DNA of 64,000 nt from SAR116 cluster bacterium AG-321-K23 (GTDB lineage Bacteria; Pseudomonadota; Alphaproteobacteria; Puniceispirillales; Marisalimonadaceae), in the NCBI GenBank assembly GCA_003284565.1, contig QBXO01000005.1:1-64000 (forward strand), given 5' to 3'. The notes under the pieces were generated by a model. That model ran no database searches. It was not told where the DNA came from and saw only the letters and a program-made list of their open reading frames with translations. How positions within the stretch are numbered: position 1 is the stretch's first letter; every line of letters begins with the position of its first letter. The translations under genes and the position numbers were made by a program. Shown here piece by piece: positions 26,047-62,075 of this stretch.

Positions 26047-26200
26047 ATTTGAATATTTTAACCAACCCTATAAATATTATTTACACCAATTAAAAAATAA
26101 TTGAAACTTATTTGAAAAAACTATATAAATATGACTAATTAATTTAAGGAAAATTGGTCATTTAATGCCTAATAATATAGGTTTTTATAATTATATGTCC

Positions 26201-26212
26201 GTGCGGTAGCTT
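26201..26212 (+). promoter_or_regulatory. ops/JUMPstart-like element (GTGCGGTAGCTT)
   Basis: Contains the GCGGTAGC core (26203-26210) of the RfaH-recruiting ops element, upstream of a ~37 kb all-plus polysaccharide gene run. Confidence 0.5.
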
Positions 26213-26245
26213 TGCCTAAAAAGTAGACACAGTATTACTAGAAAA

Positions 26246-26358
26246 TTAAAAATTTAGACAAGTTTTATTGGTATTACCAGTACTTCGATGTCTAACTATT
26301 TTAGCTTCAAGGTATAAAGATTTCCATTTTCTTTCAAGAATAGATTCTTTTAAATATG
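26246..26358 (-). pseudogene. Fragment of a second N-acetylmuramoyl-L-alanine amidase (C-terminal ~37 codons)
   Basis: Reverse-strand YLKESILERKWKSLYLEAKIVRHRSTGNTNKTCLNF* aligns with ...ILRKWKSLYPEAKIVGHRDTGNTNKTCPNFD of the intact gene at 25645-26046. Confidence 0.85.
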
Positions 26359-26574
26359 ACTAAATTAACTATTGATATGGTATCTAGTCTTAACTCTTTA
26401 AGTTAGTAAGATAAGCTATTAAGAGTTGTCTGTGAATAACATGAGTCTAACTAAGCAATCTAAAGTTACTTGATGTTCATCATTAGTAGTTTTATTTCAA
26501 ACCATCATAAATTGAATTTCACATCAGCTTCACATTCCTTGGTCCTAATAGTAGTTGGAAAATAAAAAAATAAA

Positions 26575-28737
26575 ATGATTTATCTTTTCACTCTAGTTAT
26601 TGCTATGCCTACTTTATATAAACGTGGCATTCTTATTGTAGCCGACTCATTAATGTTGATTTTTGCTTTGTGGTTATCATTTTCTCTGCGCTTGGAAAGT
26701 TGGTACTGGCCTGTTGGCGGAGAGAATAATGCCATTGCACTGCTGATGTTGTTTGCTCCAGTATTAGCTGTACCAGTTTTTATACAATTTGGACTTTATC
26801 GAGTCATTATCCGTTATCTTGGTGTGAAGGCTTTTTTGTCTGTTTTTAAGGCGGTCATAATTTATTCAGCTGCTTGGGGATTGTTGGTTTTTATAAGTGG
26901 CGTGCAAGGAGTGCCTCGTTCTGTGGTACCTATAAATGCCATGGTTGCATTATTTACAATTGGTGGATTACGTGTTTTAGCTCGATGGTTATTACGTAAA
27001 ATAGAAGATGTGAAACGAGCTAAAAAACATCATTTTGGCTTCGATATGGGTTTCATAAAACACAGGCCAGCCAAGGTGGTTATTTTTGGTGCAGGAGAAG
27101 CAGGGCGTCAATTGGCTGTTGGTCTGGGACAAAGTCACCAATGTATTTTGCTTGCCTTTGTGGATGACGACTTTAATCTTCAGGGACGAGATTTGATGGG
27201 GGTGCCCATTTTGTCTCAAGCAAAATTAGTTGAATTTGTGAGTCAGCATCAGGTAGATGACATATTGCTTGCCATTCCTTCTATTTCTCGAAAGCAACGC
27301 AATAAGATTATTGAAGGTTTAAGACCACTTAATAAGCATATACGTACCTTGCCTGGTTTAGCCAACATGGCTCGTGGACAATCTGATTACAGCCAACTAA
27401 ATGAATTAGACATTAACGATTTATTAGCACGAGAACCTTCAGTAGCAGACGAAGCTTTACTTCAATCTCAAGTAAGAGACCAAGTGGTTCTGGTGACCGG
27501 GGCTGGAGGTAGTATCGGAAGTGAACTTTGTCGTCAGGTATTACAGCGTAAACCTAAAATTTTGTTGTTATTTGATCAAAGTGAAATAGCCCTCTATACG
27601 CTCAATAACGAGTTACAGAAAATCCTTTATCAACTTAGTCAAGCAGAAAGCGTTGGGTTTTCTGGTGAACAAAACCAGGATAATGCTTCGAAAAATAATT
27701 TAGGTAATATTAATTTAATGCCTAGAATCGTGCCTTTATTGGGTTCTGTAACTGATGAAAAACGAGTGAGGGATGTGATATCTACTTGGAGACCTAGTAT
27801 TATTTATCATGCGGCAGCAATTAAGCATGTGCCTATCGTGGAAAAAAATATTGCAGAATGTGTAAAAACAAATATTTTTGGAACTTTAGTTATGGTCAAG
27901 GTGGCGATAGAGTGGCAAGTCGATCGATTTGTTTTAGTAAGCACAGATAAGGCTGTAAAACCTACTAATGCAATGGGGGCAAGTAAACGTTGTTGTGAAC
28001 TTATTTTGCAGGCCCTAGCGGCAGAGGTACAACCTGCTTTTGGGCCGTTATTGAGTGGTCAACAAAGTGTACGCACAGAGCATAAAACCCAATTGTCAAT
28101 GGTACGATTTGGAAATGTGTTGGGTTCCTCAGGTTCTGTAGTGCCATATTTCCGTAACCAAATCAAGCAAGGTGGACCAATCACCCTTACCCATAAGGAC
28201 GTTGTCCGCTACTTTATGACTATTCCAGAGGCTGCGCAGTTGGTTTTGCAAACCGGAGCGATGGCAGGTCAAGAACTGAGAGACACTATTGAAGAAAAGT
28301 GTGCTGAAGTATATGTGCTAGACATGGGTGAACCAGTTAAAATATATGACTTGGCACGTAGAATGGTTGAACTTTCTGGCCTCCGTGTTAAAGACGATGA
28401 TTTTCCATCAGGTGATATTGCCATTAAAGTTATTGGCTTACGCCCAGGTGAAAAGCTTTATGAAGAACTAATAATAGGTAATAATCTACAAAAAACCCAG
28501 CATACAAGAATTATGAAAGCGAGGGAAGAATACTTGCCTTGGGATGAGTTAACACCTTGGCTTAGCAGCTTAAAGGCTGCAGCTGAGAATAGTGATGTTT
28601 TGATGATACGCACTCTTTTTAAAAATCTTATACCTGAATACATTCCTGAAAAAAAAGTTGCAGACTTGATCTATAATGAACAAAGGAATAATAAGGACAA
28701 ATTTGATCAGAAAAAATTTCAAGTTCCACATTTTTGA
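26575..28737 (+). CDS. WbpM/CapD-type nucleoside-diphosphate-sugar 4,6-dehydratase (membrane-anchored)
   Basis: N-terminal TM helices; two Rossmann motifs VVIFGAGEAGRQLA and VLVTGAGGSIGSELCRQV; STDKAVKPTNAMGASKR. Confidence 0.93.
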   Translation: MIYLFTLVIAMPTLYKRGILIVADSLMLIFALWLSFSLRLESWYWPVGGENNAIALLMLFAPVLAVPVFIQFGLYRVIIRYLGVKAFLSVFKAVIIYSAAWGLLVFISGVQGVPRSVVPINAMVALFTIGGLRVLARWLLRKIEDVKRAKKHHFGFDMGFIKHRPAKVVIFGAGEAGRQLAVGLGQSHQCILLAFVDDDFNLQGRDLMGVPILSQAKLVEFVSQHQVDDILLAIPSISRKQRNKIIEGLRPLNKHIRTLPGLANMARGQSDYSQLNELDINDLLAREPSVADEALLQSQVRDQVVLVTGAGGSIGSELCRQVLQRKPKILLLFDQSEIALYTLNNELQKILYQLSQAESVGFSGEQNQDNASKNNLGNINLMPRIVPLLGSVTDEKRVRDVISTWRPSIIYHAAAIKHVPIVEKNIAECVKTNIFGTLVMVKVAIEWQVDRFVLVSTDKAVKPTNAMGASKRCCELILQALAAEVQPAFGPLLSGQQSVRTEHKTQLSMVRFGNVLGSSGSVVPYFRNQIKQGGPITLTHKDVVRYFMTIPEAAQLVLQTGAMAGQELRDTIEEKCAEVYVLDMGEPVKIYDLARRMVELSGLRVKDDDFPSGDIAIKVIGLRPGEKLYEELIIGNNLQKTQHTRIMKAREEYLPWDELTPWLSSLKAAAENSDVLMIRTLFKNLIPEYIPEKKVADLIYNEQRNNKDKFDQKKFQVPHF

Positions 28738-29181: not shown

Positions 29182-30600
29182 ATGCAAATAATTCCCGTTA
29201 TTCTATCAGGCGGCTCTGGAACAAGGCTCTGGCCCTTGTCTCGCAACGAGTATCCTAAGCAGTATTTACCTTTGGCAGGTGATAACACCATGCTGCAGGA
29301 AACTATCCTGCGTCTCAGTGGATTAGATAACCTTGCAGATCCAATTATTGTTTGTAATGCGGATCATCGTTTTTTAGTGGCAGAGCAGTGCCAGCAAATT
29401 AGGGTTAAGAACCCAATAATATTACTAGAGCCTATTGGCAGAAATACAGCGCCTGCTATCGCTGCAGCGGCACTTCAATCACTTAAAGCCTCTGACGATG
29501 CAGTAATGTTAGTATTGTCAGCTGATCACGTAATTCAAGATATTGACGTATTCCACGAGTCAATTAAAATTGCAAGCAGTCAAGCACAAGATGGTAAATT
29601 AGCTACATTTGGTATTGTGCCAATAGATGCCAACACAGGTTATGGTTATATCAAGTCATCTAAGAACAACACTGATGGCGGATATAAGGTCGAAGAGTTT
29701 GTTGAGAAGCCAGACCTAGAAACCGCACAAGCTTACTTAGAACAAGGTAATTACCTTTGGAACTCTGGCATGTTTATGTTCAAGGCTGATGTACTAATTG
29801 ATGAGCTAACTATCCATTCACCAGATATTGTTCAGTTAGTAAGTGATGCTGTTAATAACGCCACACAGGATCTTGATTTTGTTCGTCTTGAGGAGCAATC
29901 TTTTTCATTAACTCCGGGTATCTCTATTGATTACGCACTCATGGAAAAAAGCGATAATGTGGTTGTTGTGCCACTGGACGCTCAGTGGAATGATATTGGC
30001 TCCTGGACAGCGCTGTACGATATTGGCGCAAAGGATGGTAGTGGTAATGTGCTCAAAGGAGATGTAATTGCGAAAGATACAACTAACACGTATATTTATG
30101 CTTCTCGCCATGTGGTAACTGCAGTTGGCGTAGATAATCTAGTCGTTATTGATACGCCTGACGCTACATTTATTGCTAGTCAAGACAAGGCGCATGAAGT
30201 TAAGTCTATTGTTGAGTCTCTTCAAAAAAAGGGCAGAGATGAGGCCCGCTCCAATCGCAAGGTATATCGTCCGTGGGGCTGGTATGACTCTATTGAAGTT
30301 GGTGTGCATTTTCAAGTTAAGAGATTGCACGTAAATCCTGGTGCAAAACTGTCCCTTCAAATGCATCACCAGCGTGCAGAGCATTGGGTAGTAGTCAGTG
30401 GGACAGCTACAGCGATTAATGGAGAAGATGTCCTTACATTAAAGGAAGGTGATGCAACTTACATTCCGATTAGGACAACACATAGTTTAGAAAATAAAAC
30501 CAATGAGCAGTTAGAGATTATTGAAGTACAAAGTGGCGCTTATTTGGGCGAGGATGATATTGTAAGATTTGAGGATATTTACGGCAGGGTCAAAGATTAA
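29182..30600 (+). CDS. manC: Mannose-1-phosphate guanylyltransferase / mannose-6-phosphate isomerase
   Basis: VILSGGSGTRLWPLSRNEYPKQYLPL; C-terminal cupin RPWGWYDSIEVG...HHQRAEHWVVVSGTA. Confidence 0.96.
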   Translation: MQIIPVILSGGSGTRLWPLSRNEYPKQYLPLAGDNTMLQETILRLSGLDNLADPIIVCNADHRFLVAEQCQQIRVKNPIILLEPIGRNTAPAIAAAALQSLKASDDAVMLVLSADHVIQDIDVFHESIKIASSQAQDGKLATFGIVPIDANTGYGYIKSSKNNTDGGYKVEEFVEKPDLETAQAYLEQGNYLWNSGMFMFKADVLIDELTIHSPDIVQLVSDAVNNATQDLDFVRLEEQSFSLTPGISIDYALMEKSDNVVVVPLDAQWNDIGSWTALYDIGAKDGSGNVLKGDVIAKDTTNTYIYASRHVVTAVGVDNLVVIDTPDATFIASQDKAHEVKSIVESLQKKGRDEARSNRKVYRPWGWYDSIEVGVHFQVKRLHVNPGAKLSLQMHHQRAEHWVVVSGTATAINGEDVLTLKEGDATYIPIRTTHSLENKTNEQLEIIEVQSGAYLGEDDIVRFEDIYGRVKD

Positions 30601-30601
30601 T

Positions 30602-31038
30602 GTTGAACGATCAAATATTTAAAAAATTTGTTGATTCTGCCCCACTGATTTCTATTGATATTTTAATTAAAAAAGGTAATAAAATATTATTTGGCAGGAA
30701 AATTAATAAACCTGCACAGGGTTATTTCTTTATTAATTGGCGGTATAATTAATAAGAATGAAACCATTGACAATACAATGGCAATAGTGACTTTAAATGA
30801 GATTAATAATGAGTTGAAATCTGTACCAAAGTTTATTGGTGTCTTTGAGCATTTTTATGATGATAGCAACTATGAAAATGTATCAACACACTATTTAGAA
30901 ATTGCTAATGAGTATGAGGAAGAAGAGACTCTAGGTCTACCAACCAAGCAACAAAGTGAATACCAATGGTTTACTGTTGATGAATTATTAAATAGCAATC
31001 AATTACATAAATATATAAAGGACTATTTTAGAAATTAA
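30602..31038 (+). pseudogene. gmm: GDP-mannose mannosyl hydrolase (Nudix), frameshifted
   Basis: Frame 1: LNDQIFKKFVDSAPLISIDILIKKGNKILFGRKINKPAQGYFFIN then shift at ~30738 to GGIINKNETIDNTMAIVTLNEI...FIGVFEHFYDDSNYENVSTHYLE. Confidence 0.8.
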
Positions 31039-31040
31039 AT

Positions 31041-32135
31041 ATGGCAAAAAACAAAGTAGCACTAATTACAGGCATAACAGGACAGGATGGCTCCTACTTA
31101 GCAGAATTTTTGTTAGACAAGGGGTATGAAGTTCACGGCATCAAGCGTCGCGCATCCTCATTCAATACCAAGCGAATTGATCATCTCTATCAAGATCCTC
31201 ATGAAACTGATAGAAAATTAGTGCTTCATTATGGAGATCTGTCGGATTCAATGAGTTTGGTGGGTGTTATTCAGAAAATTAAACCCGACGAAATTTACAA
31301 TTTGGGTGCGCAGTCACACGTGGCTGTTTCTTTTGAGACACCTGAATATACAGCTGAAACTGTTGGTCTGGGTGCGCTTCGTGTGCTTGAGGCTATTCGC
31401 ATTTCAGGTCTTGAAAAGAAAATTCGTTATTACCAGGCTTCCACTTCAGAACTATACGGCGAAGTACAAGAAACCCCACAAAAAGAGACTACACCGTTCT
31501 ACCCACGTTCTCCATACGCAGCAGCTAAGTTATACGCTTATTGGATTACGATTAATTATCGTGAGGCATATGGTATGTATGCCTGTAACGGCATATTGTT
31601 TAATCACGAATCTCCAGTGCGTGGCGAGACTTTTGTTACTCGTAAAATTACTCGGGCTTTGGCTCGTATTTCGTTAGGCTTGCAAGATACGCTTTATTTG
31701 GGGAACATGAATGCGTTGCGAGATTGGGGCCATGCAAAAGATTATGTTGAGGTGCAGTGGCTAATGCTTCAACAAGATGAGCCAGATGATTTTTGTATCG
31801 CTACTGGTGTTCAGTATTCAGTGCGTGACTTTGTTGATTTTGCTTGGGGACATTTAGGTAAGAAGATTCGATGGGAAGGCGAAGGCATGGATGAGAAAGG
31901 TTATGATTCTGAAACAGGCAATTTAGTCGTTGCAGTTGACAAGCGCTACTTCCGTCCAACGGAAGTAGAAACATTATTGGGTGATCCATCTAAAGCCAAA
32001 GAAAAATTAGGCTGGGAGCCAAAAATCACTCTAGAAGAAATGGTGCATGAAATGATGGAAAATGACATTAATATCGCCAAGCGTGATTCATTAGTGAAAG
32101 ACTATGGTTTTAAAGCACCAGATTTTAATGAGTAA
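31041..32135 (+). CDS. gmd: GDP-mannose 4,6-dehydratase
   Basis: [46 protein letters not shown]. Confidence 0.97.
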
Positions 32136-32146
32136 TTGATTTAGAA

Positions 32147-33103
32147 ATGGATCTTAACGACAAAATCTATATTGCAGGGCATCGTGGCCTAGTAGGCTCT
32201 GCAATAGTTAGGCAATTAGAAGAAAGGGATTTCACCAATCTGTTAGTGCGCGAACATAAAGAGCTAGACCTCACTAATCAGGTGGCAGTGCAAGCCTTTT
32301 TTTCACAAGAAAAACCTGATTATGTTATTCTTGCTGCAGGAAAAGTGGGCGGTATTCATGCAAATAACACTTATCCAGCTGACTTTATCTATCAAAACTT
32401 AATGATAGGTGCTAATATCATTAATTCGGCTTATGAGCACAAGGTTAAACGCTTATTGTTTTTAGGCAGTACTTGTATTTACCCTAGGTCTGTAGAGCAG
32501 CCAATGCGTGAAGATGCAATGCTCACCAATGTATTAGAACCAACTAATGAGCCTTATGCACTATCAAAGATAGCAGGTATTAAACTTTGTGAATCATACA
32601 ACCGTCAACACGGTACAGATTTCCGTTCAGTAATGCCAACCAACCTTTATGGTATTAATGATAACTTTCATCCGGAGAACTCACACGTTATCCCAGCACT
32701 GATGCGACGTTTTCATGAAGCAAAGGTAAATAATGAGCCTGAAGTAGTTGTGTGGGGTACAGGCAATGCAATGCGTGAATTTTTGTATGTCGATGACATG
32801 GCTGCAGCATCACTATTTGTACTTGAGTTAGATAAGCAAACTTACCAAGCCAACACTCAACCAATGCTCTCACATATTAATGTTGGAACAGGCAAGGATA
32901 TAACTATTCGTGAAATGGCAGAAACGATGAAAGAGGTGACTGAGTTTACTGGCAAACTTCGCTTTGACACAACTAAATCAGAGGGTACTCTGAGAAAATT
33001 GATTGATGTAACTCGGCTGGAAGGTATGGGCTGGAAGTATAGTATAGATTTAAAAGAGGGTCTTAAAAAAACATATGAATGGTATTTTGAGAGTAATAAG
33101 TAG
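32147..33103 (+). CDS. fcl: GDP-L-fucose synthase
   Basis: [69 protein letters not shown]. Confidence 0.97.
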
Positions 33104-33815: not shown

Positions 33816-34673
33816 ATGAAAATATTAGTAACAGGTGGTGCAGGATTTATTGGTAGTCACCTTTGTGAAGAGTTGGTAAAAAATAAAAATAATAGTGTGT
33901 ATTCATTAGACAACTATTCAACTGGAACAAAGAAAAATCATGTTGAGGGAGTGACTTATATACAGGGGGAGACTAAAAATATTGACAATCTAATTGATTT
34001 CAATCCAGAGATTGTTTATCACCTTGGAGAATATTCACGAGTTGAGCAAAGTTTCGATGATATTGAAAAGTTATGGGGTAGCAATAAAGACGGTATTTTT
34101 GCTATATTGCAATTTTGTAGAAAACACTCCTCAAAATTAGTATATGCTGGAAGTAGCACTAAGTTTGGAGATGGTGGCATTGGAAGAAATCAGAGTCCAT
34201 ATGCATGGACAAAAGCATCAAATACAGAGCTGGTTAAAAATTATGGAGATTGGTTTGGACTCAAATTTGCAATTACATATTTTTATAATGTTTACGGTGG
34301 TAGGGAAATATCAACAGGGAAGTACGCAACTTTAATTGCCTTATTTAAAGAAAAATATAAAAATAGAGAGCCTTTAACGGTTGTAAGTCCTGGCACTCAA
34401 CTAAGAAACTTTACACATATTGATGATATTATTTCAGGCCTTATTATGGTAGGAGAAAAAGGTAGTGGTGATAATTATGGTATAGGTTGTTCAGAATCAT
34501 TTTCAATATTAGATATAGCAAATATGTTTGATACCAAAATAAAAATGTTACCAGAAAGAAAAGGAAATAGAATGACCTCCAAGGTTGAATGTGAAAAGAT
34601 AAAAATCCTTGGCTGGAGTGAGACGAAATCAGTTTTAGATTACATTGAAAGTTTTAAAAATAATAATAAATAG
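33816..34673 (+). CDS. NAD-dependent epimerase/dehydratase (UDP-glucose 4-epimerase-like)
   Basis: MKILVTGGAGFIGSHLCEELVKN; SPYAWTKASN; YFYNVYGGRE. Confidence 0.9.
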   Translation: MKILVTGGAGFIGSHLCEELVKNKNNSVYSLDNYSTGTKKNHVEGVTYIQGETKNIDNLIDFNPEIVYHLGEYSRVEQSFDDIEKLWGSNKDGIFAILQFCRKHSSKLVYAGSSTKFGDGGIGRNQSPYAWTKASNTELVKNYGDWFGLKFAITYFYNVYGGREISTGKYATLIALFKEKYKNREPLTVVSPGTQLRNFTHIDDIISGLIMVGEKGSGDNYGIGCSESFSILDIANMFDTKIKMLPERKGNRMTSKVECEKIKILGWSETKSVLDYIESFKNNNK

Positions 34674-34748
34674 TAAATTAAACAAAAAACTATAACAAGT
34701 TTAAATGGACTCTTGGCATGTGATTTAGATAATAAAAAAAGGATGTAA

Positions 34749-36011
34749 ATGAAAAAAATAGCTATAATTGGTCTTGGTTACGTTGGACTCCCTCTTGCTG
34801 TAGAGTTCGGTAAAAAACGTGTAGTTATTGGTTTTGATATTAACCAATGTAGAATTAATGATCTTAAAAATGGTGTCGATTCAACTCTTGAAATTAGTTC
34901 TGAAGGGCTTAAAAATGCGGTCCATTTAAGTTACGCAACTAACGTTAATGATTTAAAAGATTGTAAGATTTTTATCATCACTGTCCCGACACCAATTGAC
35001 AAGCATAAAAGACCTGATTTAACTCATTTAGAAAAATCCAGTGAGGCAGTTGGCTCCATTCTTAAAAAAGGTGATATTGTTATTTATGAATCAACCGTTT
35101 ATCCGGGCGCTACTGAAGAGGTTTGTGTACCCGTCCTTGAGCAGCAATCTGGCTTAACTTTTAATAAAGACTTTTATTGCGGCTACTCTCCTGAGCGTAT
35201 TAATCCAGGTGATAAAGAACATAGAGTTACCACTATTAAAAAAGTAACAGCGGGCTCAACTCCTGAGATTGCTACTGAAGTTGATGAGCTGTATAAAGAG
35301 ATTGTTATTGCCGGCACACATAAGGTGAGTAGTATTAAAGTTGCTGAAGCTGCAAAGGTTATTGAAAACATTCAAAGAGATGTAAATATTGCTCTTATTA
35401 ATGAGTTTGCGCTTATTTTTAATAAACTAGATATTGATACAGAATCAGTGTTAAAAGCCGCAGGCACTAAGTGGAATTTTTTACCATTCAGGCCAGGCTT
35501 AGTAGGAGGGCACTGTATTGGTATTGATCCATACTATTTAACTCACAAAGCGTTAGAGGTGGGTTACAACCCCGAGATGATTCTTGCCGGTCGAAGACTA
35601 AACGACAGTATGGGATCTTATGTGGCAGACCAAGTGATAAAACTCATGAATAAGAAACGCATTCACGTTGTAGATGCGAATGTACTGATCATGGGTCTAA
35701 CATTCAAAGAGAACTGTCCAGATCTTCGCAATACTCGTGTCGTTGATTTAGTTAAAGAATTTGAAGGTTTTAACTGCAATATAGATGTATATGATCCATG
35801 GGTTGATAAGGATGAGGCTCTACATAAATATGGTATTAACCCAATCGATCAGCCGTCAGAGGGTAAATATGATGCAATATTGTTAGCAGTTGCACATGAT
35901 AAATTTAGAGATTTATCATTGGCTCAAATAAAAGCTTTTGGTAAAGATAGTCACGTTCTTTACGATATTAAATATTTACTTAAAGCCAATGAAATAGACG
36001 GAAGACTATAA
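34749..36011 (+). CDS. Nucleotide sugar dehydrogenase (UDP-N-acetylglucosamine 6-dehydrogenase, TviB/VipA/WbpO-type)
   Basis: [58 protein letters not shown]. Confidence 0.95.
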
Positions 36012-36800
36012 ATGATTAATTACGAACAATTACAAGAACACTTAAGGAGTAATCAAAGCTCTTGGTTGGTAGCTGGCGTTGCAGTTTTATTGGCTATAAC
36101 TTAGTTGAGAAGTTATTAACCTTATCATCAAAAAGTGGTGGGCTTAGATAACATTGATACTGGCGATCAACATAATAAAGATCAAACCATAGAAGACGCT
36201 AATAATACTACTGGCCCAATAATACTACTGGCAAGGACTTAAGGGTAACTTTAAGTTTGTTAATGATGATATAAGAGAGTTGAGTAATGTAAGGATGTAC
36301 GTAATAGTGCCGACTATGTACTAAAACAGGCTGAACTAGGATTAGTGCCTAGATCAATCGAAGACCCTATTAATACCAACAGTTCTAATAATGATGGCTT
36401 AAACATGCTAGTTGCTAGTAAAGATGCAAACGTAAAATGATTTATCTATGCAGTATCAAGCTCTACTTATGGTGATCATCCAGATCTTCCGAAAGTAAGA
36501 GATAAGATTGGCAATTCTTTAAGCTCTTATGGGGTAACTAAAGTTGTTAATGAGCTTTATTCCAATGTATTTGCAAAAACTTATGGATTTAAAATCATAG
36601 AGTTAAGATACTTCAACATTTTTGGCAAAACACAAGATCCAAATGGTATGTAAGCAGTAGTCATACCAAAATGGTTGGTGGCTATTTTAAATAAAGAGGA
36701 TGTGTATACTAATGTTGATGGTGAAACGAGTTGGGATTTTTGTTATATTGATAATACAGTCCAAATAAATCTACTTGCAACAACAAGTATTGTAAATTAA
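36012..36800 (+). pseudogene. Decayed TviC/WbpP-type UDP-HexNAc 4-epimerase
   Basis: MINYEQLQEHLRSNQSSWLVAGVA...GYNLVEKLLTLSSK...GLDNIDTGDQHN...DLRVTLSLLMMI-type frameshifts; ...RSIEDPINTN..., [70 protein letters not shown]; multiple stops. Confidence 0.87.
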
Positions 36801-36834
36801 TACATTTGAAATTATATGAAGGTGCTTTAAAAAT

Positions 36835-37830
36835 ATGAAATTAGAAAAATTAATAATAGCTGAAATTGGCTCCGTACATGATGGATCGTTTGGCAATGCT
36901 ATGAATTTAATTGAATCAGCAGCAAAACACGGGGCAAACTGTGTTAAATTTCAGACTCATATTGCCCAAGCCGAGACTTTGTTATCTGCGCCCAATCCTC
37001 TTTATTTTACAGGTGAGCCTCGTTTTGAATACTTTAAGCGCACATCATTTAGTGTGGAGCAGTGGATAGCATTGCGGCAAATGGCCGAAGATTGTAATGT
37101 AGAATTTCTTTCTTCTCCCTTTTCTTTAGAGGCTGTAGATTTATTGGAAGAAATTGGAATATCAGCATATAAAATTCCATCTGGAGAAATTAGTAACACT
37201 CCTTTAATCGAGAAAATAGCAGAAATTGGTAAACCTGTAATTGTTTCTTCAGGTATGAGCAACTGGGGTGATCTAGATAATGTTGTTAACTTGCTAAAAG
37301 AAAATTGCGATCTTGCTGTAATGCAATGTTCCTCAATATATCCATGTCCTAATGAGAAGGTTGGATTAAACGTTATTAATGAAATAAGGAATCGTTATAA
37401 CTGTTTTGTTGGTTTTTCAGACCATACTGAGGGAATTGCAGCTTCAATTTCTGCTGCAACCTTAGGGGCAACAATAATTGAAAAGCACTTTACTTTTTCT
37501 AAGCAGATGTATGGAAGTGATGCAAAAAATTCTATGGAGCCTCTAGAGTTTAATGTAATGTGTAATGCAATTAAAGATGTATGGGTTATTATGGACAATC
37601 CTATAGATAAGAATGATATTTTAGAATATAAAGAAATGAAATTAATTTTTCAAAAAAGTATAGTGTCTAAAGAAGATCTTTCAGTTGGCACAATTTTAAA
37701 AAAAGAACACATGGCTTTTAAAAAGCCTGGAAGCGGCATTGAAGCCAAAAATTATAGAGAGTTGATTGGAAAAAAGTTGACAAAGAGTTTTCTTAAAGAT
37801 GAAATGTTTACATTAGATTTCTTAGAATAG
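36835..37830 (+). CDS. neuB: N-acetylneuraminate synthase family protein
   Basis: LIIAEIGSVHDGSFGNAMNLIESAAKHGANCVKFQTH; KIPSGEISNTPLIEKIAEIGKPVIVSSGM; C-terminal SAF-like domain. Confidence 0.93.
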   Translation: MKLEKLIIAEIGSVHDGSFGNAMNLIESAAKHGANCVKFQTHIAQAETLLSAPNPLYFTGEPRFEYFKRTSFSVEQWIALRQMAEDCNVEFLSSPFSLEAVDLLEEIGISAYKIPSGEISNTPLIEKIAEIGKPVIVSSGMSNWGDLDNVVNLLKENCDLAVMQCSSIYPCPNEKVGLNVINEIRNRYNCFVGFSDHTEGIAASISAATLGATIIEKHFTFSKQMYGSDAKNSMEPLEFNVMCNAIKDVWVIMDNPIDKNDILEYKEMKLIFQKSIVSKEDLSVGTILKKEHMAFKKPGSGIEAKNYRELIGKKLTKSFLKDEMFTLDFLE

Positions 37831-37959
37831 TCTAACTATGTTAAGTAAGTATTTATTAGGTTTCCTAAATAATAATATTAAATTTTTAACTAGTGTTTCT
37901 TATATTAAGCACATTAGAAGTGTTTTTTAAAAATAATTTAAAACTTTAAGGGTAAATTT

Positions 37960-39108
37960 ATGATACGCAAAATATGTGTATTTGTAGGTTCTAGGGCTAA
38001 TTATTCTAGTATAAAATCAGCAATGGTAGCTATTAATGAGCACCCTAATCTTGAACTTCAGTTAGTTTTGGGAGCTTCCGCATTGCTAGATAGATACGGC
38101 TTGGTTTCTGAATTGATTAAAGCGGATGGATTTAAAGTTTCTGGAGAAGTTTATATGCTTCTTGAGGGGGAAACCCCAACTACAATGGCAAAATCTACTG
38201 GGATTGGATTAATGGAGTTGCCGACAGTTTTTGAAAGATTGCAGCCAGACATTGTTTTAACTGTTGGAGATAGATTTGAAACCATGGCGACAACTATTGC
38301 AGCAAGCTATATGAATATACCAGTAGCTCATACTATGGGTGGAGAAGTTACTGGTACGATTGATGAAAGTATTCGTCATGCTGTAACAAAATTTGCTCAT
38401 ATTCACTTTCCTGCAACTAAAGATGCTAAGGATAGAATTATAAAACTTGGTGAAAGAGAAGAAGATGTTTATGTTGTTGGCTGTCCAAGGATTGATTTAG
38501 TTGATGAGGTTCTTAATAACAAGAAAATTAACGAAAGTTTTATGAATAAAGGCATCGGAAGTAAAATTGACATTAATAAGCCTTTTCTTCTTGTATCTCA
38601 GCATCCAGTAACCACAGAATATGGCAATGGCGAAAGTCAGATAGAGATAACATTGAATGCAGTAAGAAAAACGGGCTATCCGTCCATTGTGCTGTGGCCT
38701 AATGCAGATGCAGGGTCGGATGATATTGCTCGTGGCATAAGAAAATATAGATTAAAAAATTCAAACGATAATATGCATCTCTTTAAAAATCTACCTGTTA
38801 ATGTTTATATTCAACTTATGAGTAAGACCCTTTGCTTAGTGGGTAATTCATCTAGTGGAATCAGAGAAGCAGCATTTATTGGAACACCAGTGGTAAATAT
38901 TGGAAGTAGGCAGGTGATGAGGGAGCGTGGTAAAAATGTAATAGATGCCTCTTACAATGAAATTGAAATACTCGAAGCTATTAAGAAGCAAATTAAAAAT
39001 GGGGCATATCCAAAAGAGTCTATTTATGGTGATGGCAATGCGGGAGTTAAAATCGCAAATATATTGAGTAAATGCACTTGGAATATACAAAAGAGAATCA
39101 CATATTAA
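37960..39108 (+). CDS. neuC: UDP-N-acetylglucosamine 2-epimerase (hydrolysing)
   Basis: CVFVGSRANYSSIKSAM; DIVLTVGDRFETMATTIAASYMNIPVAHTMGGEVTGTIDESIRHAVTKFAHIHFPAT. Confidence 0.93.
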   Translation: MIRKICVFVGSRANYSSIKSAMVAINEHPNLELQLVLGASALLDRYGLVSELIKADGFKVSGEVYMLLEGETPTTMAKSTGIGLMELPTVFERLQPDIVLTVGDRFETMATTIAASYMNIPVAHTMGGEVTGTIDESIRHAVTKFAHIHFPATKDAKDRIIKLGEREEDVYVVGCPRIDLVDEVLNNKKINESFMNKGIGSKIDINKPFLLVSQHPVTTEYGNGESQIEITLNAVRKTGYPSIVLWPNADAGSDDIARGIRKYRLKNSNDNMHLFKNLPVNVYIQLMSKTLCLVGNSSSGIREAAFIGTPVVNIGSRQVMRERGKNVIDASYNEIEILEAIKKQIKNGAYPKESIYGDGNAGVKIANILSKCTWNIQKRITY

Positions 39109-39160
39109 TTTCTTCAATCTCAATTATGCACACTTTTTTTATTAAAAACCAAATTATACT

Positions 39161-39853
39161 ATGAAAGTTCTTGGCATTATTATCGCCCGAGGCGGATCTA
39201 AAGGCATCCCAGGAAAAAATATTAAGAATCTTGCTGGGAAACCCCTCATTTCATACACTATAGAAGCTGGATTAAAAAGTAAGTTAATTTCAAAACTTAT
39301 ACTTTCAACAGATGACGAGGGGATTGCTAAAATTGCAAGAAAATATGGTGTAAGTGTGCCATTTATAAGGCCGGAAAAATTATCAAAAGATGATACTCCA
39401 GGTTTGCCAGTAATTACCCACGCAGTAAAATATATGAAGGAGGAAAATAATTATCAACCAGATGTTATTGTTGTTTTACAACCAACCTCTCCTTTAAGGC
39501 GATCAGATCATATTGATGAGGCGTTAAAGATATTTTTGGATTATAAGACAGATTCAGTTGTTAGTGTGACTAAAGCGCCACATAATGCAAATCCATATTC
39601 AATAATGAGTGTAAACAAAGATGGGTCAATTAAACAGTTTCAGAAGTATAATGAATTGGGAAATTTACGACAAAAAAAACCAGTATTTTATTGTAGAAAT
39701 GGGGCGATTTATGCTTGCACATATAAGTGTTTGATTGAGAATGAAACTTTATATGGTAACCTAACTATTCCATATTTTATGGAAAAAAAAGATTCATTCG
39801 ATATTGATGATGAAATTGATTGGAAGATTATGGAATGTTTCCTAAATACATGA
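39161..39853 (+). CDS. neuA: CMP-nonulosonate (sialic acid) cytidylyltransferase
   Basis: IIARGGSKGIPGKNIKNLAGKPLISYTIEAGLKS; VVLQPTSPLRRSDHIDEAL. Confidence 0.94.
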   Translation: MKVLGIIIARGGSKGIPGKNIKNLAGKPLISYTIEAGLKSKLISKLILSTDDEGIAKIARKYGVSVPFIRPEKLSKDDTPGLPVITHAVKYMKEENNYQPDVIVVLQPTSPLRRSDHIDEALKIFLDYKTDSVVSVTKAPHNANPYSIMSVNKDGSIKQFQKYNELGNLRQKKPVFYCRNGAIYACTYKCLIENETLYGNLTIPYFMEKKDSFDIDDEIDWKIMECFLNT

Positions 39854-40016
39854 TAAATTGAAGTAAAATCTTTAACTAAAATAATTTGAATTTAAAAAAA
39901 CAGGCAATTAAATGGTATTCATACAGTCCTTATCCTTGGTGGGAGTGAATGTGTTGGATTTGGTTGTTCTAGAAAAGGAATAATATAATATTTTTTAAAA
40001 TGTATGAATTTAAAGG

Positions 40017-41045
40017 ATGAAAAAAAATATAGACCATGCTCATATTGGCCGCATTGTAAGTGATAATTTTCACTGTTGTAATATTATAATTTCGATCGAA
40101 TGTCATGGTGACGGTACAATAGGTAGCAATCAGCATTACATAATAACCACCCCAATTTCAAAATATTTTCTTAAAACAATATGTAACGCAGACGCATTGT
40201 TTCAGGGAGATGCTTTGTTTAGAATTAAGACAGTATCAGAGGCTATTAATCAGCTTAAAAATAAAGGCTTGAATCTTGAGCATATTATTCCAAATAAAGA
40301 TGGAGAATTTATAACCAATATAGATGGTGTAATATATCGATTGTATGAATTTATAAAAGGAAGGTCTTTTAACAGCACAGAAACTGATATAAAACAGGCT
40401 GTAAGATCGATGTCAAATATTCACGAAAAAGCACATAAACTATTGGATAAAAATATATATTTTAATTTAAAAAAAATCAGAACCCCGTATCCTTTAGACC
40501 AGTCAATTAAAAAAATAGCTGAAATCAAACAGTCAATTGATATATTATCATCAAAACCAAACGTTCATAATAACACGTTTAAACTTTTATCAAATAAATT
40601 TGAATTTGTTGAGAAAGGTGTAAGTAGGGTAATTAATCTGACAGATAAAGAAGCAGATTGTCGTTTTATTCATCTTGATTTTCACCCAGACAATGTGATT
40701 TATGATGCTAATGGTGTAGCGAACATAATAGATTTAGATAATGCAATGTTAGGAAATTTGAAAAAATGTATTGCATTTTCGATATTAAGATTTTCTCTAT
40801 ATAAACAACCTTCTAACCCTTATAAAAATATTATTAATGTTTCAAAAATCTGGATAAAAAATCAAAAGCATGAAAAATCATTACAATTTAGTGATCTTGT
40901 AGATTGGATGCTGTATGTTGAATTGGAAAAAATACTTCGAATCGTGTTGAGATATATTGAAACAGGAAAATATTCAAAATTCTTAATAAATATCAATAAG
41001 ACACACTTTCCTAACTTGAAATTATTATTAAATGTTGAACGCTAA
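40017..41045 (+). CDS. Aminoglycoside phosphotransferase-like kinase
   Basis: RFIHLDFHPDNVIYDANGVANIIDLDNAMLG (HxDxxxxN / IDxD motif). Confidence 0.82.
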   Translation: MKKNIDHAHIGRIVSDNFHCCNIIISIECHGDGTIGSNQHYIITTPISKYFLKTICNADALFQGDALFRIKTVSEAINQLKNKGLNLEHIIPNKDGEFITNIDGVIYRLYEFIKGRSFNSTETDIKQAVRSMSNIHEKAHKLLDKNIYFNLKKIRTPYPLDQSIKKIAEIKQSIDILSSKPNVHNNTFKLLSNKFEFVEKGVSRVINLTDKEADCRFIHLDFHPDNVIYDANGVANIIDLDNAMLGNLKKCIAFSILRFSLYKQPSNPYKNIINVSKIWIKNQKHEKSLQFSDLVDWMLYVELEKILRIVLRYIETGKYSKFLININKTHFPNLKLLLNVER

Positions 41046-41994
41046 CAATAACCCTAATCAAGTAACAGTGGTAATGTACCACTACGTAAGGAATTTTGCA
41101 CTTACACCTTTCCCTGATATTAAGGGATTATTGGTGTCAGAATTTGATTATCAGATTAATTATTTTAGAAAAAAATATAATTTTGTTACCATTGAGCAAT
41201 GCATTGCAGCATTAAAGGGAGAGTGTTCATTGCCAAGAAACTCAATTCTATTAACATTTGATGATGCATTTTTAGATCATTATACAAATGTATTTCCAAT
41301 ATTAGATAAATACAATATACAAGGCAGTTTTTTCCCTCCAGCAAAAGCCGTTATGGGGAGTTGCGTACTTGAAGTGAACAAGATACAGTTTATTCTATCA
41401 AAAGCAGATAATGTGGATTTGATTATACTGGATATATTTAAGATGATAGATGAGAACAGGTTAGAGTTTTCGCTTGAATCCAATAAGTATTATTTACATC
41501 ATTACCTTAAACCTAGGCGATTTGATAACAAAAATATTGGTTTTGTAAAAAATATTTTACAGAAAGGTTTGCCTAGAAAGTTTAATGAGCTATTGCTCGA
41601 TAAATTATTTCATAAATATGTCACAACTGATGAAAATGCCCTTTCTCATGAGTTATATATGACTGCTGAACAATTGAATTGTATGGTTAGAAATGGTATG
41701 TATGTTGGTAGTCATTGTTATGATCATGTTTGGCTCGATTCTCTAAATGAACAAGAACAAGAATATCAAATCGATTTATCGTTAAAGTTTCTTAATCAAA
41801 TTGGAGCACCCATAGATAATTGGGTAATGTGCTATCCACATGGTGGTTATAATTTAGTTACAAAAAATATTCTTGAAAGAAAAGGTTGTGCACTTGGGTT
41901 GACAGTAAACAATGGAGCGTGGCTTCTAGACAGACATAATAAGTACGAAGTTCCAAGATTTGATACAAATGATTTTCCAAAAAAACCTAGTTAA
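41032..41994 (+). CDS. Polysaccharide deacetylase (NodB-like) family protein
   Basis: VTVVMYHYVR; ILLTFDDAFLDHYTNVFPILDKYNIQGSFFPPA; MYVGSHCYDHVWL. Confidence 0.88.
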   Translation: MLNANNNPNQVTVVMYHYVRNFALTPFPDIKGLLVSEFDYQINYFRKKYNFVTIEQCIAALKGECSLPRNSILLTFDDAFLDHYTNVFPILDKYNIQGSFFPPAKAVMGSCVLEVNKIQFILSKADNVDLIILDIFKMIDENRLEFSLESNKYYLHHYLKPRRFDNKNIGFVKNILQKGLPRKFNELLLDKLFHKYVTTDENALSHELYMTAEQLNCMVRNGMYVGSHCYDHVWLDSLNEQEQEYQIDLSLKFLNQIGAPIDNWVMCYPHGGYNLVTKNILERKGCALGLTVNNGAWLLDRHNKYEVPRFDTNDFPKKPS

Positions 41995-42051
41995 TTTAGA
42001 AAAAATACATTTTCTTTAACATAATAGACGAGACGGTTATATTTCCTTTAC

Positions 42052-42804
42052 ATGAAAATACTTAAAGCACTTTTTAATGATACCGAATTTTATGTTACTC
42101 CGGGAAATGGTGGTGATTTTATAGTTTTAAATGGGGATATACATGGAGGTATTGAATTGAGTAATATCAAGATTCCTATGGATAAATCTGAAGTAACGAT
42201 CCCCTTAGCTCCATCAAAAATTATTGGAGTGGGAACGAATTATGCTGAAAGTGACACATCTTTTAAAAAATCAGTACCATTAATCTTCTCTGTACCCAAA
42301 ACTGCAATAAGTTGTACAAATTCAGATATTAATATAACCCGTTATTTTGATAGTGCACTAATTGAAGGTGAACTCGGTGTTGTAATAAAGAAACAAGCTA
42401 AAAATATTTTACAAGAAGATGTTTGTAATTATATTTCTGGATATACAATTTGTAATGATATTTCTGCAAGAGACTCACGCCTACCTCTTATTTCAAATTT
42501 AATTAAGAAAGGTTCCGATGGTTTTTTTCCAATAGGACCCTGCTTTTTTAAAATACAGGAGATACTTAACTTCAATATTAGAACTTATATTAATGGTAAT
42601 TTGGCTCAATCTGGAAATACTAAGGATATGATTTATTCTATATCAGAATGCATCTCATTTATTACAAAATTTGTTACTTTAGAACAGGGCGACATTGTTT
42701 CTATGGGGACTCCATTGCCAAAGCCCAAAGCTTATCCTGGAGATAATATAAAAATAGAAATTGATGGAATAGGAATACTGGTAAATAATATTACTTCTGA
42801 ATAG
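42052..42804 (+). CDS. Fumarylacetoacetate hydrolase (FAH) family protein
   Basis: PLAPSKIIGVGTNYAES; IEGELGVVIKKQAKNILQEDVCNYISGYTICNDISARDSR. Confidence 0.9.
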   Translation: MKILKALFNDTEFYVTPGNGGDFIVLNGDIHGGIELSNIKIPMDKSEVTIPLAPSKIIGVGTNYAESDTSFKKSVPLIFSVPKTAISCTNSDINITRYFDSALIEGELGVVIKKQAKNILQEDVCNYISGYTICNDISARDSRLPLISNLIKKGSDGFFPIGPCFFKIQEILNFNIRTYINGNLAQSGNTKDMIYSISECISFITKFVTLEQGDIVSMGTPLPKPKAYPGDNIKIEIDGIGILVNNITSE

Positions 42805-42843
42805 TAATTAATGTTGGAGGAATAATATTATTTTAATGAGAGT

Positions 42844-43578
42844 GTGATGCAAATCAAATTAAAAATGAAGATGTATATTTTTGTTAGAAAGTTAGTTTTG
42901 AACTATCTAAAGTATTTAAATAGTTTTAATTTATTTGACCGAATAAGGTTGTCATTAATACACCAGTTTTATAGTAAATATCATCCTTTAGATATTTATA
43001 CAAAAACTAAAGGGTCCAGCAAAAGAAATGTCATTGATAGATATGAATCTATACGTGGAAATCTTATGGGTAAGAATTGTTTGGATATTGGTTGCCAGAG
43101 TGGATATTTCTCATTGAGAATGGCTAGTGACGGTTATTTAGTAACAGGTTTAGATAGTGATGAAGTTATTCTAGACAAAGCTAATTTGATGAAAAAAAAA
43201 CATGCAATTAAAAATGTATCTTTTGCTAATTTTAAAGTCAATCTAGAGAGTGTTAGTTCGTTACCAGTTTTTGATAACATTATTTACTTATCAATACACC
43301 ATCATATGATTAAAATTTATGGATTTGAGGCGGCATCAGAAATTCTTAAAGTATTGTGTCAAAGGACAAAATACCATATGTTTTTTGATTTTCCATATCC
43401 GGATGCTTATAAGGATAATGAGTTGTTTTCTGATATTCCAGATATGGGTGATAACCCAGATGAATGGATAAAGAATTATTTGGTCACATCAGGGTTTAAA
43501 AAAGTAGTTTCATTAAATATTTTTTCTCATAATTTAAGACCAGAAGAGAAGCGTAATTTGTTTATGGCAATAAAATAG
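42844..43578 (+). CDS. Class I SAM-dependent methyltransferase
   Basis: GKNCLDIGCQSGYFSLRMASDGYLVTGLDSDE. Confidence 0.85.
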   Translation: MMQIKLKMKMYIFVRKLVLNYLKYLNSFNLFDRIRLSLIHQFYSKYHPLDIYTKTKGSSKRNVIDRYESIRGNLMGKNCLDIGCQSGYFSLRMASDGYLVTGLDSDEVILDKANLMKKKHAIKNVSFANFKVNLESVSSLPVFDNIIYLSIHHHMIKIYGFEAASEILKVLCQRTKYHMFFDFPYPDAYKDNELFSDIPDMGDNPDEWIKNYLVTSGFKKVVSLNIFSHNLRPEEKRNLFMAIK

Positions 43579-43904
43579 CTTTTTAAAACTATTAATAAGT
43601 GATTTGTTATAACTAGAAAGTTGCTTGGAACCTAATTAATATTTTTTATTGATTACGTTGTAATACTCTATAGCTGATAAAATAATTTATTAAAATATAT
43701 ATTATTAAAAAAACATCCCTGTTGATGAGTATATTCAGCCAATGAAACGAAAAACTTGTCTCGTTGAAAGTTCCTCTAACGGTGTTCGTAAAGGCGCCTT
43801 GGCAGGGTTGTGAGTGGTCAATATTCATTCAAAGAAAATATGACAAAGCAGAGGGCATTCTTTAGATGCAATTTAAGGATAGAGATCGGCTGGAGAACAA
43901 ATAG

Positions 43905-44252
43905 ATGATACACTATCAACTTGCCCATGGAAAAGAGCCCGATATGAATTATTGGGTTGCCAAGGATATAAACTGTGATACATATTTTACAAAACTCCAT
44001 CATTCATGGGCAATGGGGCAGAAAGAAAATGCGAATGGTTCGTTGCGTCAATACTTTACGAAGTGGATGGAATTAATCAATGTGACAGGAAAACAGATAT
44101 TTAAGACGGTGGATAAGCTAAATAGCAGACTTCGAAAATACCAAGAGTTCAAAACTCCTTATGATGCTTTAAAAGAAACTAAAGGGGTGGATGTGAAAAA
44201 TTTACTAAGGTTTATAAACTTGTCATTTGAATCCAGGTGTAATTTAATTTAA
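43905..44252 (+). pseudogene. IS30-family transposase C-terminal remnant
   Basis: HSWAMGQKENANGSLRQYFTKWMELINVTGKQIFKTVDKLNSRLRKYQEFKTPYDAL resembles the IS30 (N)ENxNGLLRQYFPKG...VDKLNNRPRKxLGxKTPxEV region; N-terminal half missing. Confidence 0.82.
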
Positions 44253-46036
44253 TGCTACATTCATTAAAATTTCCATTTTCAGCTGATACTTTTATTACAC
44301 AGCGTCGACGCCTGAAAAAAAAATTATTAACGCTTAACGTTAAACGGCATCCTATTCGAGTTGCAATACTAGGAGGGTCTACAACGTCAGAAATTAAACA
44401 CGTCTTAGAGGTTTTTTTATTGATAGAAGGGTTTTTGCCAGAATTTTATGAATCTGACTATAATCAATTCTATGAAGATATTATGTTCGACAACGCTGCA
44501 TTGGCTGATTTTAAACCAAATTTAATTTATTTTCACACCTCTTACGTGAATATAACAACATATCCAACATTAGATAGCTCTCATGAAGAGGTTGAGTCAA
44601 TCTGCCAGCGTGAAATGATTAAATTTAATAATCTTTGGTCTAAAGCCTATGATGAATACGGTGCTATTATTATACAAAATAACTTTGATTTACCTATTGT
44701 ACGTGAACTAGGTAATTTAGATTCTGTCACCCACAAAGGTAAGAGTTACTTAATTCAACGACTTAATCTTGAGTTTTCTATCGCTGCCCAAAATAATAAA
44801 TATTTACATATTCAAGACATTAATTATCTTTCGGCACGCATTGGTTTGGACAAATGGTGGGATCCTGCTTTTTTTTATTCGTATAAATATGCTGTAAGTT
44901 ATGCTGCAATTCCTCACTTGGCTTATAACTTGAGTCGTATTATCTGTGCCGTTTACAGTAAAACTAAAAAATGTTTAGTAGTCGACCTTGATAATACGAT
45001 GTGGGGTGGTGTTATTGGTGACGAAGGCGTAAATAATATTAAAATTGGAGTTGATACCGCCCAATCGGAGGCATATACCGCTTTGCAAAGTTATATTCTC
45101 CAACTTAAAAAGAGAGGGATTACTATTGCGGTATGTTCAAAAAATGATGAAAAAAATGCTAAAGAAGGATTTCTCCATCCTGATAGTATTTTGAAGATAG
45201 ACGACTTTGCTGTATTTAAGGCAAACTGGCAAACTAAGTCAGAAAATTTATTAGATATTGCAAATGAATTAAATATTGGACTGGATAGCCTTGTGTTTTT
45301 AGATGATTCTTCAAGGGAAAGAGAGATTATTCGTCAACAACTTCCAGAAGTTTCAGTATTAGAGGTTGGAGAAGGTATCGAAAATTTTTTATCGATTCTA
45401 GATCAGTCTGGATTTTTTGAAGTAACGTCACTGCAAAGTGAAGATGCAAAGCGTACTCAGTATTACAAGGAAAATTTTAAAAGAGAGAAATTTGAGAGAA
45501 ATTTTGAAGATTACAGTGTTTATTTGGATTCATTAAAGATGATTGCTGAAATACAACCTTTCATACCAGCTTATTTTGAACGAATTACTCAGTTAATAAA
45601 TAAAACAAATCAGTTTAATCTAACTACTAAGCGTTCTACTTATAGTGACGTTGTTCACTACCACGAATCAAAACATTTTATTGATCTTTACGGAAGGCTG
45701 AAGGATAAATTTGGTGATAACGGTTTAATATCGGTGATCGTAGGTGAATTAAAATCACAAGAAAGTCATATTGTATTGTGGCTGATGAGTTGTAGAGTGT
45801 TTAAACGAGATTTTGAATTAGCCATCTTTGATAAATTTGTTGCAGAATGTCAATCAAGGAAAATAAAACGAATTATTGGGTACTACTCCCCTACAGAAAA
45901 AAATAATATCGTTGAAAACTTATATTCAGATCTTGGATTTAAATTTTCTCACACAGTAGAAGATACAACTGTTTGGGTATTTGTAATTCCAGACGACTAT
46001 CAATTAAAAAATATAAATATTAAGGTATCATTATGA
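44252..46036 (+). CDS. FkbH-like HAD-superfamily (HAD-IIIC) protein
   Basis: CLVVDLDNTMWGGVIGDEGVNNIKIG; AVCSKNDEKNAKEGF; LVFLDDSSREREIIRQQLPEV; C-terminal acetyltransferase-like domain. Confidence 0.94.
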   Translation: MLHSLKFPFSADTFITQRRRLKKKLLTLNVKRHPIRVAILGGSTTSEIKHVLEVFLLIEGFLPEFYESDYNQFYEDIMFDNAALADFKPNLIYFHTSYVNITTYPTLDSSHEEVESICQREMIKFNNLWSKAYDEYGAIIIQNNFDLPIVRELGNLDSVTHKGKSYLIQRLNLEFSIAAQNNKYLHIQDINYLSARIGLDKWWDPAFFYSYKYAVSYAAIPHLAYNLSRIICAVYSKTKKCLVVDLDNTMWGGVIGDEGVNNIKIGVDTAQSEAYTALQSYILQLKKRGITIAVCSKNDEKNAKEGFLHPDSILKIDDFAVFKANWQTKSENLLDIANELNIGLDSLVFLDDSSREREIIRQQLPEVSVLEVGEGIENFLSILDQSGFFEVTSLQSEDAKRTQYYKENFKREKFERNFEDYSVYLDSLKMIAEIQPFIPAYFERITQLINKTNQFNLTTKRSTYSDVVHYHESKHFIDLYGRLKDKFGDNGLISVIVGELKSQESHIVLWLMSCRVFKRDFELAIFDKFVAECQSRKIKRIIGYYSPTEKNNIVENLYSDLGFKFSHTVEDTTVWVFVIPDDYQLKNINIKVSL

Positions 46037-46278
46037 AGCATGAACAGGTGTTAGAGGCGATTCAACCAATATTTCATGAAATTTTTGATGATGAAAGTTT
46101 GATTATTACAAATGAAACGAATGCTGATGATATTGAAGAATGGGATTCATTGGCTCAAATTAATTTAGTGGTTGAAATGGAAAAGAAATTTTCGGTGAAA
46201 TTTTATTTAGACGATCTTCATGATCTTAAGAATGTTGGCGATATGGTACGGCTTGTTCTTGCAAAAGTGTCACAATGA
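46033..46278 (+). CDS. Acyl carrier protein
   Basis: EEWDSLAQINLVVEMEKKFSVKF phosphopantetheine-Ser region; overlaps the fkbH stop. Confidence 0.9.
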   Translation: MKHEQVLEAIQPIFHEIFDDESLIITNETNADDIEEWDSLAQINLVVEMEKKFSVKFYLDDLHDLKNVGDMVRLVLAKVSQ

Positions 46279-46444
46279 AAAACACAGACTTAAAGAACTA
46301 AAAAAAGGACACCTGGAAATATTTTCTGTGACCATTATAAATGTAATGATAAGGAGTTTTATGCAGATAAGTGGTGACGTCAATCCAATTCATACTGATA
46401 ATGCAGGTGTAAATATTATTATCAGTGGTGGAGAGGTTTTTTAA
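46275..46444 (+). pseudogene. MaoC-like dehydratase remnant, frameshifted and truncated
   Basis: MKNTDLK(frameshift)ELKKGHLEIFSVTIINVMIRSFMQISGDVNPIHTDNAGVN...; SGDxNPIHxD is the MaoC signature. Confidence 0.75.
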
Positions 46445-46454
46445 AGTAATATAT

Positions 46455-47471: not shown

Positions 47472-48044
47472 ATAAAAAAAATATCTACTTCCTATATATG
47501 TACATCGTATTTGCTATACACTGTCCGTCAAATGTAATTTAAATTTTTTGCTGACATGGTTTTCAATATCTTATTTTCTGATGAAAGAAAAGTTTTCCGT
47601 GATTGGAGCATGAACGAAATTAAATTACCGAAATATATAATGATTTTAAAGGTATTGGCTCTTACACATATTTGCGCGATCTGATTGCCATTATGGAGTG
47701 GGATGTGGGCCTAGGTCTATAAGATTTTTGTTTACTCTCTCTGGTTGTTTGTAATGATTTATCATTAGTAGGGAAGAATTTAATTTTTGATTTAACAGAT
47801 TTAACTGTTTAACATTTAAATGGATTTCTATCAATATGGAAAATATTCCTTTTGACGATATAACCTCACTCCGTCCTATCTGTTAAAATATAATTTATCC
47901 TTAAATCCTCATATGTTAATAGTGGGAGGTTTTATTATAAAGCGACAGAAACATTTAAAGAAACTTTTAAAAAAATTAAATTATAAATTATTTTTTGCTT
48001 TTTTTTAATCTAAGAAAGATCAAAAAATTGGGAATTTTGCTGCA

Positions 48045-49903: not shown

Positions 49904-49914
49904 CCACTCAGTTA

Positions 49915-53398: not shown

Positions 53399-53412
53399 AA
53401 TGGTAAATTTTT

Positions 53413-53697: not shown

Positions 53698-53885
53698 AAG
53701 ATTATTACATGCAAAGAAAATGTAGTTAATCTTGTATTGTTGTTAAGAGCGTATAGAAAGAAATTGTAATTAATCATGAGAAACCATAGTTATAAAAAAG
53801 TAAGATTAATCACATGATGGACGATTTGAAAATTGACTAAGCGTCAATAAAATATATAAAAGGTACTAAAATAATCATTGAAAAA

Positions 53886-62049: not shown

Positions 62050-62075
62050 TAATCAGAATGGGGGCTTTATAGCTT

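Follow-up and report, generated by a model that had tools for sequence, protein, structure and literature searches.

The window, i.e., the whole analysed stretch of 64,000 nucleotides at the beginning of a SAR116 contig, contains a polysaccharide gene island preceded by a 528-nt leader (26047-26574) with a G+C content of 25% (Table 1). As the earlier note had claimed, the genes that follow are all on the plus strand, which holds for all non-overlapped ORFs from 26575 to the window end. The polysaccharide run, put at ~37 kb in the same note, is real but extends beyond the window, as far as contig position 65868, and is about 39.3 kb long altogether. Its last gene (contig positions 65341-65868, 1.3 kb beyond the window end) is rfaH-like and is the sole gene of the NusG family in the assembly; it closes the plus-strand run and is followed by a convergent pyrC gene on the minus strand. 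The segment 36835-39853 encodes a NeuB-type synthase, a UDP-GlcNAc 2-epimerase and a CMP-sugar transferase. Judging by the predicted gene functions, the product of the island is probably a nonulosonic (sialic/legionaminic-like) acid glycan.

Table 1. Features of the leader and of the polysaccharide island in the window
Feature	Coordinates	Strand	Remarks
Possible promoter TTGAAA-17-TATAAA	26101..26129	+	Weak, in an AT-rich region; spotted by eye
Extended lineage motif CGTGCGGTAGCTTTG	26200..26214	+	CGTGCGGTAGC conservation in the genus; identical in G005
ops core GCGGTAGC	26203..26210	+	Sole intergenic copy among 15 in the genome
Leader, ops to first island ORF	26211..26574	+	MarR_EPS-type small regulator gene absent, unlike in relatives
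AmpD-like amidase gene fragment, 83 nt	26249..26331	-	Copy of 25681-25763, 89% identical
First island gene: nucleotide-sugar dehydratase/polysaccharide biosynthesis protein, PseB/FnlA-like domain	26575..28737	+	
GDP-mannose/GDP-fucose genes: manC-type GMP_PMI, mannosyl hydrolase-like, gmd, fcl	29182..33103	+	
Island remainder (a): epimerases, UDP-sugar dehydrogenase, NeuB/NeuC-type epimerase/CMP-transferase	33816..64000	+	
Island remainder (b): flippase, aminotransferase, glycosyltransferases, sugar transferase	33816..64000	+	

An ops core in the leader of the island

The letters at 26190-26225 read TTATATGTCCGTGCGGTAGCTTTGCCTAAAAAG and include TGCGGTAGCTTTG at 26202-26214, within which the core GCGGTAGC is on the plus strand, inside the interval 26195-26220 where the earlier note had placed it. 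The distance to the first island ORF, given there as ~370 nt, is 372 nt from start to start, and the core is oriented into that ORF. The full 12-nt ops element of E. coli, GGCGGTAGCGTG, is not present at this site: nine of the 12 letters are identical (positions 2-9 and 11), and the window copy has T at positions 1, 10 and 12, with G10 and G12 in E. coli. A T in the first position is found in most of the alphaproteobacterial sites compared. The letters that define the core, namely the stem G2C3/G8C9 and the GGTA loop, are present in the window copy and invariant across the sites compared, and the site is located, as ops elements are, on the sense strand of the untranslated leader of a long polysaccharide operon. 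In E. coli, GCGGTAGC folds into a small DNA hairpin on the non-template strand.

The window contains two copies of GCGGTAGC against 0.22 expected from shuffles; the second, at 17321, is inside an ORF. In the 1.8-Mb assembly there are 15 copies, and when all 15 contexts were read, 14 were found within open frames that span no fewer than 139 codons, leaving the copy at the head of the island as the only intergenic one. From the genome-wide frequency of the 8-mer, a leader of 528 nt should contain 0.002 copies per strand.

The candidate promoter in Table 1 is situated ~70 nt upstream of the ops core. It is absent from the output of the promoter scan, which demands T as the last base of the second hexamer; promoter-like sites in the AT-rich leader show no enrichment over shuffles, and the promoter and terminator scans, being overall at the shuffle expectation in this region, are not counted as evidence. 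An AT-rich inverted repeat (26110-26131/26170-26191) was considered as a substitute hairpin and dropped because the leader folds no better than shuffles. The amidase duplication between ops and the first island gene is possibly a scar of island exchange. An NlpC/P60 gene shares a 12-nt sequence, GCTTTGCCTAAA (25467-25478), with the 3' half of the motif.

Conservation of the motif and the hairpin preceding it

The RfaH-like paralog is encoded by eight of the 37 genomes of the same SAR116 genus. The 11-mer CGTGCGGTAGC occurs in these 37 genomes three times, in the source genome, G005 and G020, and all three sites are intergenic, each of them preceding a polysaccharide operon of a genome that is RfaH+ (3/8 RfaH+ vs 0/29 other genomes, Fisher p = 0.007). 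In G005, a UDP-sugar dehydrogenase gene starts 123 nt downstream of an identical CGTGCGGTAGCTTTG, and in G020, CGTGCGGTAGC heads an operon with a PglK-like ABC transporter. Two further RfaH+ genomes, G003 and G019, have an intergenic TGCGGTAGC 10-13 nt before the MarR_EPS gene that heads the operon. In the stretches read of the RfaH+ genus members G013, G017 and G036, an intact motif was not found; some operon heads of these genomes may lie beyond the contig ends. In G003, G020 and G048, the motif and its operon point away from rfaH, which implies that the factor acts on a transcript other than the one with its own gene and hence needs a recruitment signal.

Across 11 relatives from the SAR116 order, GCGGTAGC is found near rfaH at six loci, whereas 840 8-mers of the same composition reach a mean of 0.16 and a maximum of 3. 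GCGGTAGC is present also where MarR_EPS is absent (the window, G005 and G020); in the source genome, which is 69% complete, MarR_EPS had no match. In the four relatives where the MarR_EPS gene (TIGR04176) follows ops (L048, L049, L051 and L041), the presumed promoter is covered by a dyad, GTTCANNNNNTGAAC, that may be the operator of this regulator.

In the class as a whole, an RfaH-like gene is encoded in 85 of 385 alphaproteobacterial genomes. Many of these have the element TTTCACCC-NNNN-TGCGGTAGC nearby, commonly some 70-100 nt beyond the rfaH stop codon. Of the 385 genomes, 39 contain the pattern CACCCNNNNTGCGGTAGC, and 36 of those are RfaH+ (Fisher p = 1e-23); the reversed control pattern gave six matches in total. 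A permutation test of 8-mers on the distant, G+C-rich loci alone is weak, and we relied instead on the 14-letter pattern and on a swap test of the hairpin described below. In dozens of alphaproteobacteria (e.g., G207:C107, G165:C8, G435:C14), rfaH is preceded, at a distance of a few hundred nt, by a same-strand gene for a MarR-like winged-helix protein of ~200-260 aa with a weak match to TIGR04176, as a recurring regulator/antiterminator pair.

At many alphaproteobacterial rfaH loci, a short stem ends at, or a few bases from, TGCGGTAGC or the ops core. When the 38 nt upstream were folded with the stem end forced at the core, the mean z over 50 sites was -2.1. In the swap test, 3' arms were matched to upstream sequence taken from a different site, in 2000 swaps. 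The pairing score was 14.7 for own sites vs 11.5 for swapped ones (sd 0.4, maximum of the 2000 swaps 12.8), 13.4 vs 10.4 (sd 0.5) for the 25 sites without CACCC, and 15.2 vs 10.8 for the nine SAR116 sites, where none of the 2000 swaps reaches the own score. As own-site pairing exceeds swapped pairing, the stems covary. The Rfam JUMPstart model gave no match to the alphaproteobacterial elements in the subset of loci searched, and the covarying hairpin with TGCGGTAGC is a candidate RNA family. This combination was observed near rfaH in Alphaproteobacteria and some Burkholderiales (L143-L212, e.g., L146:2048, L150:1428, L190:2334, L108:10550).

The window copy itself has no detectable stem before ops (z = 0). 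The JUMPstart covariance model RF01707 does not match anywhere in 25900-26700 even at E = 10 (as a positive control, the E. coli waaQ element was found with E = 1.2e-11), and other Rfam families gave nothing meaningful in the window or in the relatives. The earlier description of the site as JUMPstart-like therefore stands for the layout of hairpin and ops in the relatives and not for the window copy, which has the ops core but lacks the JUMPstart hairpin and represents a reduced or a partly decayed form. In the relatives, no base separates the hairpin from the ops core, and E. coli waaQ is arranged likewise, with a stem of five pairs abutting ops; the stem sequences of the relatives, in contrast, are unrelated to the Rfam family.

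The RfaH-like protein encoded in the island

Among the models of NusG-type families, the 175-aa product of the last island gene scores highest with RfaH (TIGR01955, 119.3 bits), ahead of UpxY (65), NusG (58) and LoaP (46). The curated cut-off for RfaH, 144.5, is not reached by this protein, nor by any of the 85 RfaH-like proteins in the alphaproteobacterial class sample. The closest relative of solved structure (PDB) is E. coli RfaH, and in the phylogenetic tree, the RfaH-like proteins together with E. coli RfaH are separated from the housekeeping NusG of SAR116. The possibility that the paralog is the housekeeping NusG was rejected given the tree, the NusG score of 58 bits against a cut-off of 135.7 and the presence of both genes in relatives. 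A housekeeping nusG was not found because the assembly is 69% complete; this gene presumably sits in the missing third.

Compared with E. coli RfaH, the protein retains K10, R23, Q24, T72, G74, V75, I93 and R138, and has the changes H20N, R73Y, E48V and F130V. Thus, in the patch that faces ops (K10, R23, Q24, R73), three residues are retained and R73 is replaced, with Y in this position in this SAR116 genus; in the autoinhibition set (E48, F130, I93, R138), I93 and R138 are retained, and E48 and F130 are lost. In E. coli RfaH, R73 contacts ops, and the protein is autoinhibited, with an alpha-helical CTD. For an ortholog with 81% identity (L081), AlphaFold2 predicts a beta-type CTD with a pLDDT of about 80, and the predicted NTD superposes on E. 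coli RfaH in its ops-bound state, with a fit of 1.3-1.5 A across 96-97 columns. The residues kept and lost, together with the predicted fold, suggest ops-directed loading without autoinhibition of the E. coli type.

Proposed loading of the RfaH-like protein at the ops core

We propose, with a probability of roughly 0.85, that 26203-26210 is an ops core at which the RfaH-like protein encoded in the island would be loaded for transcription of the 39-kb polysaccharide run. This reading builds on direct observations, namely the presence of the motif, an intergenic position that no other copy has, the conservation of the motif upstream of homologous islands, its co-occurrence with the paralog and the identity of the paralog. 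Given that an ops-core match lies ahead of the island and that the last gene of the island is RfaH-like, this long operon is probably equipped with a loading site and a loader of its own. Several facts count against the ops reading: three of the 12 ops letters differ, the stem is undetectable in the window copy, R73 is replaced by Y, three RfaH+ genus members have no intact motif in the stretches read, and the RfaH score is below 144.5. The earlier note had tied its proposal of RfaH-type antitermination in this lineage to the presence of an rfaH/NusG paralog in the genome and of the motif ahead of other, homologous islands. Both are found, the former in the same island and the latter in RfaH+ relatives, and the proposal is supported by comparative sequence analysis in that the motif tracks the paralog.

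By analogy with E. coli RfaH, RNA polymerase that started upstream would pause at the core, the expected pause being within the GCGGTAGCTTTG segment of the SAR116 leader, and would thereby expose GCGGTAGC on the non-template strand. The RfaH-like protein would bind these bases and the polymerase, and the modified polymerase would read through the 39-kb run, otherwise expected to be prone to Rho/NusG polarity. The same analogy underlies the pausing, DNA contact and anti-termination envisaged here, as well as exclusion of NusG and recruitment of the ribosome.

The remaining explanations differ in how much of this they concede. That the site was once a working ops and has decayed, with the leader rearranged, the hairpin and MarR_EPS lost and the RfaH-like protein loading independently of sequence, would account for the lack of a hairpin at the window copy, the unmatched MarR_EPS in the 69%-complete genome and the pseudo-copy of the amidase piece in the leader, and the predicted beta CTD of the ortholog may permit such loading. 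We nevertheless consider it unlikely given that the core and its CCG flank are perfectly conserved in a leader of 25% G+C, where unselected G+C-rich bases should drift. It is very unlikely that GCGGTAGC at 26203 arose by chance or was left behind by small duplications in the leader, despite the overlap of the NlpC/P60 identity with the 3' half of the motif, the neighbouring amidase fragment, which is genuinely duplicated and keeps the same order, and the absence of the relatives' hairpin. The shared 12-mer does not contain GCGGTA, and G005 has CGTGCGGTAGCTTTG ahead of a different polysaccharide operon, so that the bases around GCTTTG are conserved independently of the NlpC/P60 copy, which was accordingly rejected as the source of the motif. 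The expectation at the genome rate and the tracking of RfaH by the motif across genomes speak against chance as well, and conservation in relatives largely refutes this explanation.

The least probable reading is that the conserved sequence is a mere consensus pause or a protein operator, for instance that of MarR_EPS, rather than a loading site for RfaH. The relatives with MarR_EPS do have a dyad over the presumed promoter, but this dyad is separate from GCGGTAGC, which is present also in the window, G005 and G020, where MarR_EPS is absent, and the invariance of G2, C3, G8, C9 and the GGTA loop speaks against such a reading.

The SAR116 case is a variant of the known ops/RfaH system and not a new kind of system. 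It shares with the E. coli prototype a long surface-polysaccharide operon whose leader has the GCGGTAGC core in the transcribed direction, and an RfaH-type NusG paralog in the genome with the same NTD fold and with K10, R23, Q24, T72, G74 and V75. It differs in that nine of the 12 ops letters are identical at the site rather than all, in the H20N, R73Y, E48V and F130V replacements, in the CTD, which in the ortholog is predicted to be beta and not an alpha-helical hairpin, and in that the factor is encoded inside its target island, whereas that of E. coli is encoded apart from the target. Thus, the monocistronic gene unlinked to targets that is typical of rfaH is not seen here: the SAR116 gene is the last in the island and, in relatives, adjoins the motif. 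Like other NusG paralogs encoded in cis (UpxY, TaA, LoaP and the monomorphic beta-RfaH; PMC13015549), it is located within or beside its presumed target operon and has a predicted beta CTD. By score, the SAR116 protein is nearer to RfaH than to UpxY or LoaP (119 bits vs 65 and 46), and its target is marked by a conserved ops core.

How NusG paralogs encoded in their own operons are recruited has been described as unknown, and ops contacts and autoinhibition are held to be late, linked acquisitions (PMC7593976). The monomorphic beta-RfaHs tested, which are encoded beside their operons, have been reported to work without ops (PMC13015549). Based on the predicted fold and the residue loss, the SAR116 loci appear to be intermediate, which suggests a combination of ops-marked targets with a locally encoded, probably non-autoinhibited factor. 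More tentatively, at slightly less than even odds, we propose that in Alphaproteobacteria a leader element unknown to Rfam, consisting of a hairpin and ops, loads cis-encoded RfaH-like proteins that lack autoinhibition of the E. coli type.

Both the site and the factor can be read from a single contig and traced across a whole bacterial class, which makes two questions testable: the recognition of ops by a non-autoinhibited RfaH and the role of the RNA hairpin before ops. The combination of TGCGGTAGC with the hairpin offers a practical marker for RfaH-controlled polysaccharide operons in uncultured marine alphaproteobacteria. If the proposal is true, ops-specific recruitment would be older than the RfaH that switches its fold and is autoinhibited, in conflict with the supposed joint origin of ops contacts and autoinhibition.
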